IMG/VR virus record: IMGVR_UViG_3300042505_000155
Location: 1 to 29,264 of that record
Source of the DNA: a virus
Length of the DNA stretch: 29,264 nucleotides
Direction: 5' to 3' (one strand)
This document shows positions 9,011 through 25,190 of this stretch, one piece after another. The notes below the pieces were generated by a model. That model made no database searches, was not told the origin of the DNA, and saw only the letters and a list, made by a program, of their open reading frames with translations. The position numbers and the translations under genes were made by a program. The number at the start of each line of letters is the position of its first letter. Positions within the stretch are counted from its first letter, which is position 1.

Positions 9011-9534
9011 AAACGAGCAAACAAATAGACGGGTGGTTCAACCACCAAGCAGCATACGACTACCTCCTTGCCAATATGCCCGAAGACGGCACATTCGTAG
9101 AACTGGGTGCGTGGCTCGGTAAGTCATCAGCCTACCTATGCGACAAAGCAACACACCAAAACATCACAATCATAGATTCCTTCAAAGGAACGGCAGAGTA
9201 CATAGACTCCTACTACAAGCTCGCCAAGACCAACGACATCTACGAGCTGTTCTTGGAGAATATGGGAACCCGTAATTACAATGTAATCAAAGGAACATCC
9301 AAAGTAGCTGCAAAAATGTTTCTGAACGAATCCCTTGACGTGGTATTCATAGACCTTGACCATTCCTATAAGGCGGTAAAGGAAGACATCAAGCTATGGC
9401 TACCCAAAGTAAAGAAGGGAGGCTTCATCGCAGGAGATGACTACCACGAACATTGGAAGGGAGTAATCCAAGCCGTTGATGAACTCCTGCCTCGTGCTAC
9501 GTTCATTGATGACTGTTGGATTTACCAAAGGTGA
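9007..9534 (+). CDS. Class I SAM-dependent methyltransferase
   Basis: This 175-residue protein has a Rossmann start FVELGAWLGKSSAYL (motif I, about residues 30-44), an acidic ITIIDSFKG (motif II) and LDVVFIDLDHSYKAVKEDI followed by GGFIAGDDYHE. The DLDHSY...GDDYH pattern is that of the Methyltransf_24 group, often found with glycan biosynthesis genes. I infer methylation of a sugar or small acceptor from the same cassette. The start is the ATGA overlap at 9007. Confidence 0.8.
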   Translation: MKTSKQIDGWFNHQAAYDYLLANMPEDGTFVELGAWLGKSSAYLCDKATHQNITIIDSFKGTAEYIDSYYKLAKTNDIYELFLENMGTRNYNVIKGTSKVAAKMFLNESLDVVFIDLDHSYKAVKEDIKLWLPKVKKGGFIAGDDYHEHWKGVIQAVDELLPRATFIDDCWIYQR

Positions 9535-10379
9535 AAACGCTAAACTCATTGTCGGGAGGCAAGACCTCCTCGTACATCGCAGCAAACTATCCTGCGGATT
9601 ATGACATCTTCTCTCTTGTAAGAATTGAGGACAAGAACTGTTTATTCCCCGATGCCAAAATACGCAAAGAGGTAGAAGACAGAATCCAAGCTCCATTCAT
9701 CGGAACGGCAGAAGATGATATGATTATCTACACTATGCTTGACCTTGAGCAGCACATCGGCAGACCTATCACTTGGGTGACGGGGAAGACCTTTGACCAA
9801 ATCACACAACGAAAGGAGAAGGTTTACTTGCCAAACAAGGTGCAACGATTCTGCACCATACAAATGAAGATTGAACCTATTTTCTATTGGATGGCAGAGA
9901 ACATTGGTGAGCCTGTTGAAACTCGCATAGGCTTTCGTGCTAACGAAACCAGTAGGGCAAAGAATATGATGGAGCGAGTGAACCAAGATGGCCTTACTAC
10001 ATTCAAAGCAACATTCGAGAAACACAAAGACGGCAGAAACAAATGGGTAGATGTTCCATATCAGAAGCCTCACTTCCCATTGATAGATGACAACATCTAC
10101 AAAGACCACATAGAAAAGTATTGGCTTGGCAAGCCTGTACGTTTTGCTTGGATGAACAACTGCGTAGGGTGCTTTCATAAAAGCCCTTTGCTACTTCGCA
10201 AGATGTTTGACAAGCATCCCAATAAGTTAGAATGGTTTGCCAAGCGAGAACGAGAGAGCATCAACAATGCACATTGGCGTTCAGAGATGACCTACGATGA
10301 CATCAAGAATTGGAACTCGCAGTTTGAATTGTTTGATGATGATTTTAACGAATGCGATACGGGATACTGCGGACTATGA
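9531..10379 (+). CDS. PP-loop ATPase, PAPS reductase-like
   Basis: The 282-residue protein begins MKTLNSLSGGKTSSYIA, an SGGKxS pyrophosphate (PP) loop near the N-terminus, as in PAPS reductases and related ATP-pyrophosphatases. Cys residues follow in VQRFCTIQMKIEP and in NNCVGCFHKSP, which resemble the CxxC iron-sulfur or redox cysteines of the family. Roles could be sulfur transfer or nucleotide/DNA modification. No DndBCDE set is seen, so phosphorothioation is not supported. The GTG start is taken from the GTGA overlap; TTG 9516 is the alternative. Confidence 0.7.
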   Translation: MKTLNSLSGGKTSSYIAANYPADYDIFSLVRIEDKNCLFPDAKIRKEVEDRIQAPFIGTAEDDMIIYTMLDLEQHIGRPITWVTGKTFDQITQRKEKVYLPNKVQRFCTIQMKIEPIFYWMAENIGEPVETRIGFRANETSRAKNMMERVNQDGLTTFKATFEKHKDGRNKWVDVPYQKPHFPLIDDNIYKDHIEKYWLGKPVRFAWMNNCVGCFHKSPLLLRKMFDKHPNKLEWFAKRERESINNAHWRSEMTYDDIKNWNSQFELFDDDFNECDTGYCGL

Positions 10380-10667: not shown

Positions 10668-10967
10668 ATGAAAGATGACAAAGGCAGGTTCATAGCAGGC
10701 AACACAGGAAGGCCAAGCGGAACACCAAACAAGACCACCAATAAAATACGAGAGGCATTCCAAACCCTTATCGAAGCCAACCTTGAGAATATGACCCTAT
10801 GGCTCACCCAAGTTGCTGCTGATGACCCAAAGGGCGCACTTGACCTCTTGAACAAGATGGCAGAGTACACAACTCCCAAACTCGCAAGGGTGGAGAACTC
10901 ACACGAAGTGTCGGATGAGCTAACGAAAATCAAGGTAGAGATTGTCCGAACTAAACCTAAAGAGTAG
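10668..10967 (+). CDS. terS: Terminase small subunit-like protein
   Basis: This 99-residue protein has an N-terminal GRFIAGNTGRPSGTPNKTTN, the G-rich RP-x-GxxNK start seen in phage DNA-packaging DUF5681-type proteins, followed by a helical region. By position, between an HNH nuclease and the large terminase, it should recognise phage DNA and recruit the large subunit. No clear helix-turn-helix can be assigned by eye. It overlaps the large subunit gene by 26 nt. Confidence 0.65.
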   Translation: MKDDKGRFIAGNTGRPSGTPNKTTNKIREAFQTLIEANLENMTLWLTQVAADDPKGALDLLNKMAEYTTPKLARVENSHEVSDELTKIKVEIVRTKPKE

Positions 10968-12102
10968 CGAACTCTTTGAGAAGAACTACACCGCACCAAC
11001 TCGGATAGTAGTCAATCAAGGCGGTAGCCGTTCTGGTAAAACCTACTCGCTTTTGCAGATGCTCATCGTGATGGCGATGGAGGATAGAGGCAAGGTGTAC
11101 TCCATTGTCCGCAAGTCGCTGCCATCTCTGAAGATGACGGCCTATCGTGACTTCTTTGAAATACTAAATGCCAACGGTCTCTATGATGAGGCACGGCATA
11201 ACAAGAGCGACTACACCTACGAGTTGAATGGCAACCTCTTTGAGTTCATCAGCCTTGACCAACCGCAGAAGAAACGTGGAGCAAGACGTGACTACCTATT
11301 CTGCAACGAAGCCAACGAACTGACTTGGGAGGATTTCTTTCAGCTCTTGATTCGTACCACAGGTAAGATATGGGTTGACTACAACCCCTCTGATGCGTTC
11401 CATTGGATTTACGATAAGTTGCTGACCCGTGATGACGTTACATACATCCAGTCAACCTACCTTGATAACCCGTTCTTGGATGCCTCAATCGTTGAGGAGA
11501 TAGAGAGGCTGCAACATACGGACAATGACTATTGGAGAATCTATGGATTAGGAGAACGTGGTATGAGCCGAGCCACCATCTTCCAATACGGGCAGGCAGA
11601 GATACCAACGGAAGCCACACTCCTATGTCACGGGATGGACTTTGGGTACACCAATGACCCAACCGCACTTGTGGCGGTCTATAAGTCGGGTGACAATCTT
11701 TATGTGGATGAGCTGATATACCGCACGGGTATGACAAACCCCGACATCAGCAACGTACTTTCCTCACTTGGCCTTGACCGAAGGGCAGAGATATATGCTG
11801 ACTCTGCTGAACCCAAATCTATTGAGGAGCTGCATCGTATGGGATGGAACGTGAAACCCACGCAGAAGGGCGCAGATAGCGTCATAGTGGGTATTGACGT
11901 ACTGAAGCGGCACAAGCTATTTGTAACCCCACGAAGCAGCAACCTAATCAAGGAACTTCAGAACTACAAATGGGTAGAAGATAAGAACGGCAACCTGCTC
12001 AACAAACCCATAGACGCATTCAACCACGCCATAGATGCGCTGCGCTATGCAACGTATAACAAGTTGAGCCGCCCTAACTTTGGGAGGTATGCCATACGCT
12101 AA
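10942..12102 (+). CDS. terL: Terminase large subunit (PBSX-like)
   Basis: This 386-residue packaging motor has an ATPase Walker A GGSRSGKT (27-34), Walker B-like YLFCNEANE (118-126, with Glu123 or Glu126 as the likely catalytic acid), and a nuclease domain with GMDFGYTNDPTA (Asp233), IYADSAEP (Asp287) and DAFNHAIDALRYA. It translocates DNA into the capsid through the portal and cuts concatemers. The length and motifs match PBSX-type terminases. The start must lie before the P-loop, and TTG 10942 inside the small subunit gene is the only good option. Confidence 0.92.
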   Translation: MSELNLKSSELFEKNYTAPTRIVVNQGGSRSGKTYSLLQMLIVMAMEDRGKVYSIVRKSLPSLKMTAYRDFFEILNANGLYDEARHNKSDYTYELNGNLFEFISLDQPQKKRGARRDYLFCNEANELTWEDFFQLLIRTTGKIWVDYNPSDAFHWIYDKLLTRDDVTYIQSTYLDNPFLDASIVEEIERLQHTDNDYWRIYGLGERGMSRATIFQYGQAEIPTEATLLCHGMDFGYTNDPTALVAVYKSGDNLYVDELIYRTGMTNPDISNVLSSLGLDRRAEIYADSAEPKSIEELHRMGWNVKPTQKGADSVIVGIDVLKRHKLFVTPRSSNLIKELQNYKWVEDKNGNLLNKPIDAFNHAIDALRYATYNKLSRPNFGRYAIR

Positions 12103-12123: not shown

Positions 12124-12816
12124 ATGGAACTAAAGGTAATTGTACCCACCTCCCTGTCGGAGATCACGCTTGACCAATACCAACGCTTTGCGAGGCTTGA
12201 GGGCGATGAGGAGTTCTTGACCCACAAGATGCTTGAGATATTCTGCGGAGTGCCTCTGGCAGAGTTGCCCAATGTAAAGTTCGCAAGCGTAGCCAATGTG
12301 ATGCGCCACATCAATACGATGTTCAGCGAGAAGCCAAACCTAAAGACAGAGTTCACGATGGGCGGTGAAACCTACGGGTTCATCCCTAACCTTGAGGACA
12401 TAACCTTCGGTGAGTATGTGGACTTGGATAATTATATGGGTGACATACAAGAGCTGCACAAAACGATGGCAGTCCTCTACCGACCCATCACCGAGCGCAT
12501 AGGCAAGCGGTACGCTATTGAGCCATACGAATCAGCATCCAAATACTCCGCATCAATGAAGGATGCGCCAATGGATGTTGTGATGGGAGCATCGGTTTTT
12601 TTTTGGCGTTTAGGAAACGAGTTACTTCTCGCTACCCTGACCTCTTTGGAGAAGGAGAAAACGAATACTCCGCAGAGTCCCAATTCGGTAGAAAGTGGGG
12701 ATGGTATTCTTCCTTCCATCAGCTTGCTCAAGGAGATGTTACAAGATTTGAACGAGTCGGAAGGCTTGGCGTTCACGAAGCCCTTACCTTTCTCGTTTTT
12801 GAAAAAGAGCGCATAG
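12124..12816 (+). CDS. Tail assembly chaperone, zero-frame product (gpG-like)
   Basis: The 230-residue zero-frame product begins MELKVIVPTSLSEITLDQYQ and is acidic and helical. I interpret it as the short form of a tail assembly chaperone like lambda gpG, which coats the tape measure before tube polymerisation. The frame contains a run of nine T (12596-12604) reading GTT TTT TTT TGG. The tail after this point (WRLGNELLLATLTSLEKEKT onward) is the alternative to a -1 extension. It begins 3 nt after a late-gene motif. Confidence 0.7.
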   Translation: MELKVIVPTSLSEITLDQYQRFARLEGDEEFLTHKMLEIFCGVPLAELPNVKFASVANVMRHINTMFSEKPNLKTEFTMGGETYGFIPNLEDITFGEYVDLDNYMGDIQELHKTMAVLYRPITERIGKRYAIEPYESASKYSASMKDAPMDVVMGASVFFWRLGNELLLATLTSLEKEKTNTPQSPNSVESGDGILPSISLLKEMLQDLNESEGLAFTKPLPFSFLKKSA

Positions 12817-12854
12817 ACGTTGAACGCAAACAATTAGATAAGATTAAAAAATGA
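12603..12854 (+). CDS. Tail assembly chaperone -1 frame extension (gpT-like)
   Basis: This frame lies -1 relative to the chaperone gene and codes FGRKWGWYSSFHQLAQGDVT then RFERVGRLGVHEALTFLVFE, a typical W-x-x-Y..LA-GD...V...L domain of long-form tail chaperones. A -1 slip on T TTT TTT (12597-12603) would join 160 zero-frame residues to these 83, giving about 243. The next gene starts by ATGA on this stop (12852-12854), not on the zero-frame stop at 12816, which supports expression of this frame. It is not an independent gene: it has no good start of its own. Confidence 0.75.
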   Translation: MAFRKRVTSRYPDLFGEGENEYSAESQFGRKWGWYSSFHQLAQGDVTRFERVGRLGVHEALTFLVFEKERIDVERKQLDKIKK

Positions 12855-13318
12855 GACAGTTCTACGACATCACCACCAAGCTAAAAGATACCCTTGAGGC
12901 CAATAGCCAAGTCAACGTGGTAACGACAGGCGATATCTTTGACATCGACCTAAACAAGCAGACCATCTTTCCTTTGTCGCACATCATAATCAACCAAGCA
13001 ACATTCGAGGGACAGATAGTCCGTATGAACGTGAGCATTGTTTGTATGGACTTGGTGGATGAGACCAAAGAGAATCCTCGCTTGCAGGCAGAGCCGTTCT
13101 ACGGCACGAGCAACGAGCAGAACATCTTGAACACGCAGCTCGCAGTAATCAACGATGTGGTGACAGAACTGCGCAGGGGTACGTTGTACACCGACCTTTA
13201 CCAGTTGGATGGTACTGCTTCTTGCGTTCCCTTTAGCGAGAGGTTTGAGAACCTGCTTGCAGGGTGGACTGCAACCTTTGATGTGCTGCTTGCTAACACC
13301 GAGATCAGCATCTGCTAA
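12851..13318 (+). CDS. Tail terminator/completion-like protein
   Basis: This 155-residue protein, starting MRQFYDITTKLKDTLEANSQ, has a helix followed by beta strands (TGDIFDIDLNKQTIFPLSHI) as in tail terminator-type proteins. It follows the chaperone by ATGA and precedes a gp10-like protein, a typical place for head-tail joining functions. The call rests on length, layout and context. The stop is 2 nt before the next ATG. Confidence 0.5.
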   Translation: MRQFYDITTKLKDTLEANSQVNVVTTGDIFDIDLNKQTIFPLSHIIINQATFEGQIVRMNVSIVCMDLVDETKENPRLQAEPFYGTSNEQNILNTQLAVINDVVTELRRGTLYTDLYQLDGTASCVPFSERFENLLAGWTATFDVLLANTEISIC

Positions 13319-17145: not shown

Positions 17146-17279
17146 AGCCCACCTATTTAAGTTATTTGATAGAACTGCTGCAAGCAAGTGACTATCGCAA
17201 CGTCTCCGAAACTATTGATATAGCAAAGGGCAAGAACGCAATACCACGAACTTGGAAGGAGTTTCTAAAACGTAGATAA
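17142..17279 (+). CDS. Small hypothetical protein before tape measure
   Basis: The 45-residue frame MKPTYLSYLIELLQASDYRN continues to end EFLKRR. It is joined to the upstream gene by ATGA and to the tape measure gene by TAATG, so it is almost certainly translated. It is helical with a basic end. The function is unknown; a helper of tail assembly is inferred from position only. Confidence 0.7.
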   Translation: MKPTYLSYLIELLQASDYRNVSETIDIAKGKNAIPRTWKEFLKRR

Positions 17280-19153
17280 TGGCAGTAGTAGAAGAAATTC
17301 GTATTGAAGGAGATACTTCTGGCTTTCAGAAGCAGATTGATGCGCTCAATAAAAAGATTGAGGAGCTTGAGAAGAATCTCGGTGGCGTACAGAAGGAAGC
17401 TGCTGACGTAGGCAAGGAAGCCAAGAAGACGGGCGGCATCATCAACAAGGCATTTGACGGCCTAAAGAAAGTCGTTACCGCACCCTTTGAGCTTGCAAAA
17501 AAAGCAGCAAGCGGATTAGGAAGCCTACTAAAAGGCGGTCTTGGGCTTGGGCTTCTTGTTGGCGTAGTAGACAAACTATCGGAGGCTTTTCAAAGCAACC
17601 AAAAGGTAGTAGATGCGGTCAACAAGGTGATGACTACCTTGAGCATTATCTTCAGTCAGATAACCGAAGCAATCTTTGGGGCAGTAGAGGAGCAGAGCAA
17701 ACTCAACGGAGGCTTTGATGCAACGAAGAAGGTACTGGGTGGATTGATTAGCGGAGTGCTTAATGTATTTGTAGGCATCATACAGGGCATCCAATTAGCG
17801 GTGCTTGAAACGCAGCTCGCTTGGGAGAAGTCATTCTTTGGAGATAAGGATGCAACACGCATCAAAGAGCTAAACAAGGAGATAGCCCTCACTCGTGAGG
17901 AGTTGACCAAGACGGGTGAGAACCTTTTGGAAAGTGGCAAGATGGTCATCAATAACCTTGCAGAAGCAGCAAGCGAGGTAGCAAAGACCGTTGTAGCAGT
18001 TGCAAAGAGCGTTACAAAGGCGGTGCAGGAGTTGGATGTAGACAAGGCCGTAAGCGATGCAGAGCGATTGGTAGCGTTACGCAAGCAAGCGGCACTTGCT
18101 GATGTAGAACGGCAGAAGATTCAGCTTCAGTTCCAAAACACCCAAGAGCAGCTTCGGCAGTTGCGTGATGATGAGCTTGTCTCACTTGCAGAACGCCAAT
18201 CGGCAAACGACAAACTACTTGCATCTCTTGAGGAGCAAGCGGAGCTTGAGAGGGTGCAGTTAAATATAAAGGTTGCGGCAGCGCAGGCAGAGTTAGGAAT
18301 TGTAAACTCCAACGAGAATCTTGTTGCGCTGAAGCAAGCGCAGTTGGAGTTGATTGATTTGGATGAGAGGCTGCAAGGTCAGAAGTCAGAGGCGTTGGCA
18401 AACCAAAACTCCCTTCTTCGTGAGCAGGCAGACATCACCAAGAGCATCGGTGAGACCGACCAAGAGATATTTGAGATTCAGCAGAACGCTCAACTTGAAC
18501 TCATAGATGATGCGGTAGCAAGAGCCGAGAAAGAAATAGAGATAGCGCAAAATGTCTTCAACCGCAAGAAGGCATTGCTTGAGCAAGAGGTAGCGGCTAC
18601 AAAGGCAGGAACCGCAGCTCGTGCAGAGGCGGAGAATGCTCTAAAGTTATTTGAAGCGGAGAACGCAGCAGGTCGTTTGGCTTTGGAGAAGAACTTGCAG
18701 CAGGCGAAGTTAGATGCTATCAAAGGCGCACTAAACGGAATCGCACAACTCGTGGGTGAGAATACGCTACTGGGCAAAGGTATAGCGTTAGCGCAGGTAG
18801 CCATTGACACTTATACAGGAGCTACAAAGGCTCTTGCACAAGGTGGTGTATTTGGTTACATAGGAGCCGCAGGAATTGTTGCAACAGGTATTGCAAACGC
18901 ACGAAAGATAACCGCTACGCAAGTGCCCACCGAATCAGGCGGTGGTGGTAGCAGCCCTGCCATAACAAACACGCTCTCGCAGCCCTCTACCCCTGCGCAG
19001 TTTAACATCGTAGGGCAGTCCAACCTTAATCAACTTGCACAAAGCATAGGTGGTCAGTTTCAGCAGCCCATCCGTGCTTATGTCGTAGGGCAGGATGTAA
19101 CGACCTCACAACAACTACAACGCCAAAGAGTAAGAACCGCAACATTCGGATGA
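17279..19153 (+). CDS. Tail tape measure protein
   Basis: The 624-residue protein has an N-terminal coiled coil (about 15-60), a Gly/Leu hydrophobic segment (LGSLLKGGLGLGLLVGVV, about 81-98), another hydrophobic helix near residue 160, then a long Gln/Glu/Ala coiled coil (about 250-460). A second hydrophobic stretch (GGVFGYIGAAGIVATGIANA) is followed by a flexible Gly/Ser/Pro tail ending RVRTATFG. This is the layout of tape measure proteins, which set tail length and aid DNA entry. It is short for the family, predicting a rather short tail. Confidence 0.8.
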   Translation: MAVVEEIRIEGDTSGFQKQIDALNKKIEELEKNLGGVQKEAADVGKEAKKTGGIINKAFDGLKKVVTAPFELAKKAASGLGSLLKGGLGLGLLVGVVDKLSEAFQSNQKVVDAVNKVMTTLSIIFSQITEAIFGAVEEQSKLNGGFDATKKVLGGLISGVLNVFVGIIQGIQLAVLETQLAWEKSFFGDKDATRIKELNKEIALTREELTKTGENLLESGKMVINNLAEAASEVAKTVVAVAKSVTKAVQELDVDKAVSDAERLVALRKQAALADVERQKIQLQFQNTQEQLRQLRDDELVSLAERQSANDKLLASLEEQAELERVQLNIKVAAAQAELGIVNSNENLVALKQAQLELIDLDERLQGQKSEALANQNSLLREQADITKSIGETDQEIFEIQQNAQLELIDDAVARAEKEIEIAQNVFNRKKALLEQEVAATKAGTAARAEAENALKLFEAENAAGRLALEKNLQQAKLDAIKGALNGIAQLVGENTLLGKGIALAQVAIDTYTGATKALAQGGVFGYIGAAGIVATGIANARKITATQVPTESGGGGSSPAITNTLSQPSTPAQFNIVGQSNLNQLAQSIGGQFQQPIRAYVVGQDVTTSQQLQRQRVRTATFG

Positions 19154-20874: not shown

Positions 20875-21801
20875 ATGGCTACGACTACATCGATAACCAC
20901 TTCGTATGCGGGGCAGTTCGCCTCCAAGTACATCTCTGCTGCTCTTTTGAGCGCAAACACTTTGGACAAAGGTCTCATCGAGATTCTTCCAAACGTAAAC
21001 TACCGCACCACCCTTCAGAAGGTGAACACTAACGACATCGTAAAAGATGCCACTTGTGATTTTGATGCAACTTCTACTTTGACTTTGACCGACCGCATCC
21101 TTGAGGTTGAGCCATTCCAAGTAAACTTGCAACTTTGCAAGAAGGACTACTACGATTCTTGGATTGGTGGTCAGATGGGTTTCTCTGCTTACGATAGCAT
21201 CCCTGCTTCTTTCGCTGACTTCCTTATCGCCCACGTTGCTGCAAAGACTTCACAGAAGATTGAGCAGAACATTTGGAACGGAGCTGCTGCTTCAGCAGGT
21301 GAGTTCTCTGGATTCCTTTCTTTGATGACTGCTGACTCTGACGTTATTGACGTAACTGCTACCACCGTGACTGCTGCGAACGTAATCGCAGAGCTTGGTA
21401 AAGTCGTAGATGCAATCCCTTCTGCCCTTTATGGCAAGGAAGACCTTCAAATCTTTGTCCCACAAAACGTAGCAAAGGCTTATGTCCGTGCGCTTGGTGG
21501 ATTCGGAACTTCAGGTCTTGGAGCGAATGGTGTTGACAACAAAGGCACTACTTGGTATGGTAACGGAGACTTGTTCTTTGACGGCATCAAGGTTGTAATG
21601 TGTAACGGTCTTCCTTCTAACAAGATGGTCGCTGCTCAAGCAAGCAATATGTTCTTTGGAACAGGTCTTTTGAACGAGCGCAACGAAGTCCGTGTACTTG
21701 ATATGGCTGACCTTGACGGTTCAGACAACATCCGAGTAATCCTACGCTTCTTCGCAGGAGTTCAGTACGGAATCGGAGCTGACGTAGTCCTTTACTCTTA
21801 A
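20875..21801 (+). CDS. Major capsid protein
   Basis: The 308-residue product starts MATTTSITTSYAGQFASKYI and has the composition and order of HK97-fold capsid proteins: an N-terminal helix, strands with EVEPFQVNLQLCKKDYYDSW, a Gly/Ala-rich middle and an ILRFFAGVQYGIGADVVLYS end. It lies after the scaffold and is followed by a strong terminator, as expected for a highly expressed gene. The leader is a strongly A-rich run (20856-20868), the usual strong start in this host group. Codon use is biased to a few codons, consistent with high expression. Confidence 0.85.
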   Translation: MATTTSITTSYAGQFASKYISAALLSANTLDKGLIEILPNVNYRTTLQKVNTNDIVKDATCDFDATSTLTLTDRILEVEPFQVNLQLCKKDYYDSWIGGQMGFSAYDSIPASFADFLIAHVAAKTSQKIEQNIWNGAAASAGEFSGFLSLMTADSDVIDVTATTVTAANVIAELGKVVDAIPSALYGKEDLQIFVPQNVAKAYVRALGGFGTSGLGANGVDNKGTTWYGNGDLFFDGIKVVMCNGLPSNKMVAAQASNMFFGTGLLNERNEVRVLDMADLDGSDNIRVILRFFAGVQYGIGADVVLYS

Positions 21802-21879: not shown

Positions 21880-22428
21880 ATGGCTTGTGATTTAACAAAA
21901 GGCAGGGCGGTACCCTGTAAAGACGTAGTAGGTGGCATTTATGCCGTGTACTTTGTAGACTTCGGTGACTTGGGTACCGTTACCCTCACCAACGATGAGA
22001 TTACCAACATTAGTGGTACTTTCTCTGCTTACCAATATCTTGTAAAAGGCAACTCATCTTTTGAGCAGACCTTTAACTCAAGCCGTGAGAATGGTACTAC
22101 CTTCTTCACGCAGACTTTGAATCTTACGTTGACCAAACTGACAAAGGAGGACAACAAAGAATTGAAGCTGCTTGCCTATGGTCGGCCTTATGTTGTGGTG
22201 CAAGACTACAACGGCAATGCCTTTATGATGGGTCTGAACTACGGAGCCGAAGTAACAGGTGGAACAATTGTAACTGGTGCCGCTATGGGTGACCTATCGG
22301 GCTATACCTTGACAATGGAGGGACAGGAGCAACTTCCTGCTAACTTCATTGCAGGTGCTACTACTGCCAATCCATTCGCAGGACTTGCAGGTGCAGTTGA
22401 AACGATTGTAGTGGGTTCTAACTCGTAA
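21880..22428 (+). CDS. Probable major tail tube protein
   Basis: This 182-residue beta-rich protein begins MACDLTKGRAVPCKDVVGGI and shows the tube-like pattern of strands (SFEQTFNSSRENGTTFFTQT, then VVVQDYNGNAFMMGLNYG) ending in a variable segment. Tube proteins polymerise around the tape measure. It stands alone between terminator-like hairpins, suggesting its own strong transcription. The order MCP-tube-portal is unusual. It could also be a minor capsid or decoration protein. Confidence 0.55.
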   Translation: MACDLTKGRAVPCKDVVGGIYAVYFVDFGDLGTVTLTNDEITNISGTFSAYQYLVKGNSSFEQTFNSSRENGTTFFTQTLNLTLTKLTKEDNKELKLLAYGRPYVVVQDYNGNAFMMGLNYGAEVTGGTIVTGAAMGDLSGYTLTMEGQEQLPANFIAGATTANPFAGLAGAVETIVVGSNS

Positions 22429-23005: not shown

Positions 23006-23440
23006 ATGCATATCCTTCAAGTATCAGCTTCACCTCAAACCATTACGGTCATCCCTCGTGAGTTCGTTTACTCATCAGAGGACTTGGACTTATACTTCGA
23101 GCGTGTGTTGTTTGATGGTGGCACTTTAGAGGCCACAGGATGCGTTACAAGCGCAGTTAACGACCTTGATGGTGTTACGCTATATTTGATTGATGAAAGC
23201 ACCAACACAGAGCAAGAAATCAATCCTACAATAACAGAGGGTAATGGCTTTATGGAACTGACGGCAGTCTATACATTAGTCAACAACCGATTCTACGGCC
23301 TCAAATTAATATACGATGGTGACCTTATCTACCGAGATAGGGTATTCGTAACTTCGCAAACAGATTTCGACAAATTTACGGTGAACCAAAACGTCTACAC
23401 CGAAGAACAAAGCTACAATAATGAGTACATCATCATCTAA
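23006..23440 (+). CDS. Virion protein with DGG module, before portal
   Basis: The 144-residue protein begins MHILQVSASPQTITVIPREF and ends NVYTEEQSYNNEYIII. The outer parts (LYLIDESTN, GFMELTAVYTLVNNRFYGLK, IYRDRVFVTSQ) form a beta-rich domain I know from Bacteroidota phages just before portal. Residues 33-56 (RVLFDGGTLEATGCVTSAVN and on) are the DGG module, here apparently inserted between two strands. It is likely a minor virion component. It overlaps the portal gene by 20 nt. Confidence 0.65.
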   Translation: MHILQVSASPQTITVIPREFVYSSEDLDLYFERVLFDGGTLEATGCVTSAVNDLDGVTLYLIDESTNTEQEINPTITEGNGFMELTAVYTLVNNRFYGLKLIYDGDLIYRDRVFVTSQTDFDKFTVNQNVYTEEQSYNNEYIII

Positions 23441-25190
23441 AGTCCACGTTGTGAACTTCAGTTCCTACACCACACCTGTTGTTAAAGAGGTGCAGGGTAA
23501 GGACTACGTTGAATACGGAGATAACAACGACTACTTCGGCTACCTAATTGACCGCTACAACGGCTCACCCACCAACAACGCTATCCTCAACTCTTTGATG
23601 GATATGACCTTTGGCAAGGGACTGGATGCATCGGACTCTGCCAAGAAGCCGAGCGAGTACGCAGCGATGCGTGGCTTGTTTACGAAAGCCTGCTTGCAGA
23701 AGGTTGTTGCTGACTATGTGATGATGGGGCAATGCTCTTTTCAGGTTGTGTACTCCCAAGACCACAACACCATTGTAGAGGTGCAGCACATCCCCGTAGA
23801 GACGTTGAGAGCTGCAAGGTGCAACGAAGACGGAGAGATTGAGGCGTACTACTACGCAAAGGATTGGACAGACGTAAAAGGCAGAAAAGAAACTGCGGTA
23901 CGCATCCCTGCATTTGGCACGAGTAAGGAAGGATTAGAGATTCTATACATCAAGCCCTACCGAGCAGGATTCTACTACTACTCCCCAGTAGACTATCAAG
24001 GTGGCCTTCCCTATGCGGAACTTGAGGAGGAGATTGCCAACTACCACATCAACAACATCCAGAACGGCCTTTCGCCTTCTATGCTGATTAACTTCAACAA
24101 CGGAGTACCGAGCGAGGAGGAGCGCAGAAGCATAGAGCAGCAGATTGCCACGAAGTTTAGCGGCAGTTCAAACTCTGGCAAGTTCATCCTTGCGTTCAAC
24201 GATAACAAAGACCTCGCTGCAACGGTTGATCCTGTGCAGCTATCGGATGCTGCCGAGCAGTATCAATTCTTGAGTGCTGAAGCCACGCAGAAGATAATGG
24301 TTTCGCATCGTATCGTAAGCCCTATGCTTTTAGGTATCAAGGACAATTCAGGACTCGGCAACAACGCAGAGGAGCTGAAGACCGCTTCTACGCTTTTGGA
24401 TAACCTTGTCATCCGACCCAAGCAGGAGATTATCATTGACGGCATAGATATGATTCTTGCGTACAACGACATCAGCCTAAACTTGTACTTCAAGACCCTT
24501 CAGCCTTTAGAGTTTACCGAAGACGTAGTTACGCCTATGGATTTAGAGACTCGTGAGGAGGAGACAGGCGTGAAACTTGCCAAGCAAGACAATCGCCCCT
24601 TCCTGCGTGATGAGCTTGCAGCAGAGTTGCTGCTAAACATTGAGAGTCTTGGCGAAAGCGAGGAGGAGTTGATGCAGGACTTTGACCTAATCACGGCTGA
24701 CATCGTTGAGGATGAGGGAGCAGAATACGATGTAGAGGCATACCTCAACTCACGCACCGACCTTGCAGCGCAACAGGAGAGCGAGCAAGACACGGAGCGT
24801 TACAAGGTGCGCTACTTCTATGCGGTAGGAACTAAAAAAGACCCAAAGGGTGAAAGCCGTTTGCTATGCCGCACGTTGATAGGTGCCAAAAGGGTTTACC
24901 GCAAAGAGGATGTTGAGGCATTGAGTTCAAAAGGCGGAGCAGAAGCACAGGGTGAAAGGTATAGCGTATGGCTTTACAAGGGCGGTGCTAACTGCCACCA
25001 TCGTTGGGAGCGTAGAATCTACCGCAAGAAGCTAACTAAAGAGGGCAAGATTTACGGAGGTGGCTCTTTGAACGGCACGGATATTATCAACGTAAACCAA
25101 GCCATTCGTATGGGATTCCGACCTGAGAAGAATGACCCGATGGTCGCTATCGCCCCTATTGAAACAGAGACAAGAGGATATAAAAACTAA
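23421..25190 (+). CDS. Portal protein with C-terminal Cys-His domain
   Basis: The 589-residue protein has a portal core: YVEYGDNNDYFGYLIDRYNG near residue 29, the YRAGFYYYSPVDYQGG loop, a helix-rich stem, and SHRIVSPMLLGIKDNSGLGN. Twelve copies form the DNA channel at one capsid vertex. From about residue 455 a separate domain follows (YKVRYFYAVGTKKDPKGESR, later YSVWLYKGGANCHHRWERRI) with Cys and two His that could bind zinc. I know this tail as a domain on head proteins of Bacteroidota phages; its role is unknown. Confidence 0.8.
   Translation: MSTSSSKVHVVNFSSYTTPVVKEVQGKDYVEYGDNNDYFGYLIDRYNGSPTNNAILNSLMDMTFGKGLDASDSAKKPSEYAAMRGLFTKACLQKVVADYVMMGQCSFQVVYSQDHNTIVEVQHIPVETLRAARCNEDGEIEAYYYAKDWTDVKGRKETAVRIPAFGTSKEGLEILYIKPYRAGFYYYSPVDYQGGLPYAELEEEIANYHINNIQNGLSPSMLINFNNGVPSEEERRSIEQQIATKFSGSSNSGKFILAFNDNKDLAATVDPVQLSDAAEQYQFLSAEATQKIMVSHRIVSPMLLGIKDNSGLGNNAEELKTASTLLDNLVIRPKQEIIIDGIDMILAYNDISLNLYFKTLQPLEFTEDVVTPMDLETREEETGVKLAKQDNRPFLRDELAAELLLNIESLGESEEELMQDFDLITADIVEDEGAEYDVEAYLNSRTDLAAQQESEQDTERYKVRYFYAVGTKKDPKGESRLLCRTLIGAKRVYRKEDVEALSSKGGAEAQGERYSVWLYKGGANCHHRWERRIYRKKLTKEGKIYGGGSLNGTDIINVNQAIRMGFRPEKNDPMVAIAPIETETRGYKN

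Follow-up and report, generated by a model that had tools for sequence, protein, structure and literature searches.

We find that the gene directly downstream of the large terminase subunit gene in this phage is divided between two overlapping reading frames, and that its second part can be reached only by a −1 shift on a run of nine thymines (T9). The same arrangement is present in hundreds of relatives. This conservation gives strong support to a programmed −1 fusion, in which a minority of the molecules would acquire an additional C-terminal domain. The pattern of run lengths points to the probable agent as RNA polymerase, slipping during transcription, rather than the ribosome.

The window, i.e., the whole stretch of DNA analyzed, is a virus record of 29,264 bases. 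The features that concern us are as follows.

10942–12102, + strand: terminase large subunit (Terminase_3, E = 5e-26), directly upstream of the 230-aa ORF
12124–12816, + strand: 0-frame ORF of 230 aa, comprising the N part and the 0-frame tail (phrog_32199, E = 2.8e-21); predicted short, gpG-like product
12124–12603, + strand: N part, the portion of the 230-aa 0-frame ORF upstream of the shift
12596–12604, + strand: T9 slip run, with the in-phase heptamer T_TTT_TTT at 12597–12603
12603–12854, + strand: C part in the −1 frame, 83 codons plus TGA (12852–12854); predicted long, gpGT-like product of 243 aa
12611–12613, + strand: TAG in the +1 frame, just past the run; it would stop transcripts lacking one U
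12851–13318, + strand: next gene (phrog_30964, unknown function), its ATG at 12851 overlapping the −1 stop as ATGA
17279–19153, + strand: tape-measure-like ORF of 624 aa (phrog_21537, virion structural protein, a weak match with E = 7e-8), 4.4 kb downstream

The 0 frame passes through the run as ...TCG GTT TTT TTT TGG CGT... (codon 158 onward), and continues some 70 codons past the N part. The −1 frame is already open before the run and stays so as far as its TGA, giving a predicted fusion of 160 + 83 = 243 aa. An earlier sequence-only reading had described the run, the 0-frame ORF, the open −1 frame and the ATGA overlap, and all of its coordinates and sizes agree with what we read from the window. 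It had also noted that the next gene is coupled to the −1 stop, as the positions of its ATG (12851) and of the TGA (12852–12854) confirm.

Conservation of the −1 junction

Searches of IMG/VR returned 190 relatives with the 0-frame product as query and 202 with the −1 product. Every one of the first retrieved loci that span the junction has T9, with the C part in the −1 frame. Wider searches reached proteins at 25–30% identity. In the pooled set of distinct junctions with both parts readable, 408 out of 408 link two overlapping ORFs through a conserved −1 shift located toward the end of the first ORF. The run is T9 in 376 of these, T10 in 28 and T11 in 4, and is never shorter than nine. The programmed −1 frameshift fusion proposed in the sequence-only reading is therefore strongly supported, with the slippery run and both frames conserved in every readable junction of the homologue alignment that it had suggested as a check. 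That reading would have been overturned by homologues carrying both parts in a single frame with a corrected number of thymines; there are none among the 408, and only distant relatives are single-frame. Two loci lie outside this set. One (L500) has T9 but no detected C part. In the other (L637, on contig IMGVR_UViG_3300039047_000050) the N part is followed by T6 and no recognizable C part; it is possibly a broken, rearranged or recombinant copy.

Because the patterns used in some scans overlapped the run, these were repeated using N-part-only profiles that are blind to it. The outcome was T9 in 77 and T10 in 1 of 78 junctions, and in 78 more distant junctions T9 in 73, T10 in 3 and T11 in 2. 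All nine positions of the run have zero entropy in 105 sequence clusters (defined at 80% amino acid identity). Phenylalanine codons elsewhere in the N part are TTT and TTC in the ratio 657:259, and, taking the clusters as independent, the chance of finding TTT TTT in all 105 is ∼5e-31. Amino acid constraints in both frames explain a part of the T9 conservation.

The site is also found in bacterial genomes and in isolated phages. Among genomes of one host family 4 of 399 matched, one being a weak single-frame relative, and phylum-wide 4 of 395 matched, comprising one already known, two relatives (L525 and L527) and one weak match (L526). A prophage copy (L443) sits inside a 3.9-Mb flavobacterial contig with the same site. 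The Nonlabens phages P12024L and P12024S (Inhavirus), which have been isolated and completely sequenced, encode homologous N and C parts (gp40-41 and gp38-39, respectively) at about 29% identity; they share the T9, the −1 relation and the position beside terL. They differ in that the two parts are annotated as two hypothetical proteins, and in a 0-frame tail of 28 codons from the slip codon.

Homopolymers are prone to sequencing error and are used for phase variation, and it might be supposed that the true gene is a single ORF, or one that flips at the DNA level. We regard this as extremely improbable. The same site occurs in two isolated, sequenced phages, in an integrated prophage and in hundreds of independent contigs; no junction of the 408 has the parts in one frame, and the T10 and T11 forms remain in the −1 relation. 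Sequencing error and phase variation are both excluded by the isolates, the prophage and the lack of in-frame variants, and error in particular because single-frame fusion is absent from all close relatives.

More distant relatives do encode both parts in one chain. The prophage proteins L525 (245 aa) and L445 (247 aa) have the whole fusion in one frame, and align with it across the junction (211 columns, E = 4e-8); several single-chain viral proteins are likewise matched by the models of both parts. It follows that the two parts form one protein. The annotators of the Nonlabens phages had assumed instead that the −1 ORF is a separate overlapping gene with its own start; these phages carry a separate CDS there, and TTG at 12603 is a possible start in the window. 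Yet the codon there is TTA or TTC in relatives, the −1 conservation starts at the run itself (FFLxFR), and both parts lie in one continuous ORF in the distant relatives. An independent start is thus ruled out by the TTA and TTC codons together with the fused relatives, and a separate gene has next to no probability.

Run length, codon phase and flanking signals

The run can begin at any position within a codon. In phase 2 (beginning at the second base of a Val, Leu or Ile codon) there are 368 sequences, with T9 in 365 and T10 in 3. In phase 3 (at the third base of a Gly, Asn, Asp, Ser or Ala codon) there are 37, with T9 in 9, T10 in 24 and T11 in 4, and in phase 1 (at the first base) just 3, with T9 in 2 and T10 in 1. 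On a tree of the N part (149 rows) the phase has changed at least eight times by parsimony, at least four of these being forced by well-supported branches. For an in-phase T_TTT_TTT, 7 Ts suffice in phase 3 and 8 in phase 2, whereas phase 1 takes 9; yet no phase has a run below 9, and runs of 7 or 8 are never seen in the main family. Loss of T at the 5′ side can be offset by gain at the 3′ side, as in one locus (L444) that reads GGT TTT TTT TTG vs NTT TTT TTT TGG elsewhere. Selection is thus seen to act on the length of the run and not on its codon phase, with the proviso that departures from T9 in phase 2 number just 43 of 408 and were found chiefly on contigs of unknown host. Conservation in the main family is not limited to the heptamer.

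The sequence 3′ of the run, TTTAGG, is nearly invariant in the 105 clusters. The 0 frame conserves L-G-x-[E/D]-L (LGN[E/D]L) after the run, constraining the wobble positions of the −1 frame for about five codons, beyond which the 0 frame relaxes. Since this motif is retained at the expense of −1 codon freedom, the short form is also under selection, and the 0-frame product matters at least as far as those five or so codons. In all 105 clusters TAG or TAA occupies the +1 frame at the position of 12611–12613, and 95% of junctions have a +1 stop within three codons, compared with 31% at control positions; this stop is partly forced by the codons of the two overlapping frames.

The sequence-only reading had suggested seeking a stimulatory RNA structure 3′ of the run. 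None was found, the mean z being 0.02 over 105 relatives, with 0 consensus pairs from RNAalifold. In the window, the inverted repeat CGTTT-AGG-AAACG could form a stem-loop after the run, but this is not retained by relatives. The same is true of an upstream GGGAG that might have served as a Shine-Dalgarno-like stimulator, and no conserved upstream element of this kind is visible in the column counts of the 105 clusters. Separately, in some loci the chaperone gene is closely preceded by short G+C-rich hairpins with T9 behind them, a terminator-like element between it and terL. These lie about 515–540 bases before the run in L211, L276, L311, L347 and L329, and about 765 bases before it in L326.

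Slippage by polymerase or ribosome

RNA polymerases of bacteria can slip once a T run reaches seven, and that of E. coli has a strong poly(T) bias, T runs being its preferred site (PMC6260861). Runs of at least eight identical bases count as slippage sites, and the chaperone genes tested frameshift at 6–7% (PMC3711429). The junction carries a conserved A/T homopolymer of the length expected of a slippage site, about 8–9 or more (PMC3711429, PMC1088944). Under transcriptional slippage, normal expression would give the 230-aa short form, consisting of the N part and the 0-frame tail. In a minority of mRNAs RNA polymerase would slip on the T9, converting U9 into U10, and these messengers would be read directly into the −1 frame to yield the 243-aa fusion of N and C parts. 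Both the slipping agent and the ratio of the two products are inferred.

The same 243-aa protein arises whether one U is inserted or the ribosome moves back by one nucleotide. Classical −1 ribosomal frameshifting, by tandem slip of tRNA-Phe on T_TTT_TTT (12597–12603), is established for the chaperone class (PMC5009743). The ribosome could act at all main-family sites because every run of nine necessarily holds an in-phase heptamer of the X_XXY_YYZ type, as in the window. However, the main family lacks the runs of 7 and 8 that would suffice in phases 3 and 2, respectively, and there is neither a conserved 3′ structure nor an upstream Shine-Dalgarno-like element, such stimulators being frequent but not obligatory. 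The ribosomal mechanism is less well supported because what relatives keep is not the heptamer but a stretch of nine or more Ts, whichever the codon phase.

A different pattern is seen in a sister family, to which a weak match (L527) led, and which occurs in 48 of the 251 genomes sampled from another Bacteroidota host family. Profile comparison with the main family aligned 224 columns including the junction (E = 3.5e-9). The junction is present at 28 of 30 sister loci, where it always reads [CTG]NT TTT TTT with the C part in the −1 frame. The run is T7 in 21 of these, T8 in 2 and T9 in 5, and the codon after the heptamer is free (ACC, ACT, ATG, ATT, TCC, TAC or TTG). Conservation is here limited to the heptamer, which is the sequence signature of ribosomal frameshifting. 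Since the sister family keeps only the in-phase heptamer, shorter sites are evidently viable for this protein where the heptamer is what matters. It too has no 3′ RNA structure, so the lack of one does not discriminate between the mechanisms. Judged from these alignments, the fusion is encoded in no fewer than three ways, the shift being one of them. The sister loci (L690–L719) come from a host family in which about a fifth of the sampled genomes (the same 48 of 251) carry them, and related prophages or tail-like elements would appear to be very common in those hosts.

Avoidance of 9A and 9T is a published sign of slippage (PMC1088944). On the same reasoning as Baranov et al. 2005 (PMC1088944), runs in coding sequence were counted and compared with synonymous-codon shuffles. 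We used G217, a flavobacterial genome with a prophage copy (1.3 Mb coding). Its genes contain runs of 6–7 at 1.24–1.28 times expectation and runs of 8 near expectation, but runs of nine are avoided: A9 and T9 are both at 0.28 of expectation, falling to 0.03 (A) and 0.09 (T) for ten or more. In-phase T_TTT_TTT within runs of 7–8 is not avoided in G217 (225 vs 184.5 expected). In two genomes of sister hosts, by contrast, the in-phase heptamer is specifically avoided (36 vs 71.0 expected, with 44 vs 48.9 out of phase), and runs of at least nine are depleted too. The tolerance in G217 was not reproduced in a second flavobacterium, G003 (0.17 Mb), which has 17 vs 27.0 in phase and 13 vs 19.1 out of phase. 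The host contrast, resting on two genomes per side, is only suggestive of slippage among the flavobacteria and of ribosomal shifting among sister-family hosts, because of this modest deficit of both kinds of run in G003. The other genes of main-family phage loci also under-use T runs, from six upward (T6 165 vs 228, T7 33 vs 64, T8 3 vs 13, T9 and longer 0 vs 5), a broader effect than in the flavobacterial host G217.

Transcriptional slippage by insertion of one U is thus moderately favored, because at least nine Ts are kept in all phases, the sister family has the bare heptamer, and A/T runs are depleted at nine. The sister family tells on both sides, since a homologous protein retaining exactly T_TTT_TTT, most commonly as T7, in hosts that avoid it in phase, has the look of a ribosomal-type site; we consider ribosomal slippage in the main family possible but rather unlikely. 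Of the mechanisms named in the sequence-only reading, the lambda-type ribosomal slip retains its heptamer but has lost ground to what was there the alternative, slippage during transcription on T9. Polymerase and ribosome might both slip at the same T9, each giving part of the fusion. A T9 meets the requirements of both at once, T7 already being sufficient for bacterial RNA polymerase (PMC6260861), but nothing in the data demands two sources, and such a superfluous arrangement seems most improbable.

The products and their counterparts

The 230-aa and 243-aa products likely constitute a tail assembly chaperone, because of the two-product architecture, the virion-gene neighborhood and the lack of a better candidate. 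AlphaFold gave a pLDDT of 91 for the N part and 91 for the C part, the latter all helical. Searches of Pfam, NCBIfam and PDB sequences gave no match, phrog_32199 is of 'unknown function', and a PDB fold search with the N part found nothing. In a viral structure library the N part weakly matches the BFVD entry A0A8S5V8Z8, 'Tail assembly chaperone protein' (E = 0.04, prob = 0.95), and nearly all other relatives there are uncharacterized. The assignment as a tail chaperone in the sequence-only reading is thus plausible on indirect grounds, namely the architecture and one weak fold match, and finds no counterpart in Pfam, NCBIfam or PDB.

The gene follows terL, rather than sitting in the interval flanked by the major tail protein and tape measure genes. 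Between 10942 and 25190 the order is terminase, chaperone, two small genes, two large virion-type genes and the tape-measure-like gene, then a protease-like gene, a capsid-like gene (20875–21801), a probable tail tube (21880–22428) and the portal (23421–25190). The ORF at 17279–19153 is taken as tape-measure-like from its long helical sequence. This virion gene order is unusual and is not that of lambda. Further upstream, 9516–10379 holds a gene of the phosphoadenosine phosphosulfate reductase family (phrog_424, E = 5e-25).

The roles of lambda gpG and gpGT and their 30:1 ratio (PMC5009743) offer the closest analogy. Here, too, a short 0-frame product and a −1 fusion with a C-terminal domain are encoded among virion genes. 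By analogy, we would expect short-form molecules to coat the tape-measure protein and the few long ones to recruit the tail-tube subunit through their C part. The geometry of lambda assigned by the sequence-only reading holds for the two products but fails for gene position, with terL upstream and the tape-measure-like gene 4.4 kb on. The slip site also differs, with an invariant stretch of nine or more Ts in place of a mixed heptamer; the 0-frame tail continues for about 70 codons, and neither sequence nor solved structure gave a match to lambda-type chaperones.

In Shigella mxiE, two reading frames are joined when slippage occurs on a U run (PMC1088944). The gene resembles ours in its long T run, its overlapping ORFs and a longer product requiring one inserted nucleotide, but it is a regulator gene outside phages, and slippage has been shown there by experiment where we infer it here. 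The dnaX gene is a precedent for two levels of readout (PMC1088944). The same product pair is made by ribosomal frameshifting in E. coli and by transcriptional slippage in Thermus thermophilus, and the sister family (T7 heptamer) and main family (run of at least nine) would form a parallel. In dnaX, however, the extra product is the shorter one, and its mechanisms are proven rather than deduced. In the literature searched, with most subscription journals outside it, no prior report of a slip site such as that described here was found.

Tail-chaperone frameshifting is the textbook ribosomal case, and finder tools look for ribosomal heptamers. The main family appears to act one step earlier, at transcription. 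We tentatively suggest that one probable chaperone family of Bacteroidota phages and prophages may be expressed at three levels, with matching avoidance in the hosts: by the polymerase on at least nine Ts in the main family (this phage and hundreds of relatives), by the ribosome on T_TTT_TTT in the sister prophages, and as a fused ORF in distant prophages. The switch between levels would be directly comparable, because close counterparts use a ribosomal-type site and others no shift at all. Hundreds of Bacteroidota phage genomes, in which the two parts are now unnamed or called two unrelated genes, may thereby be annotated correctly.
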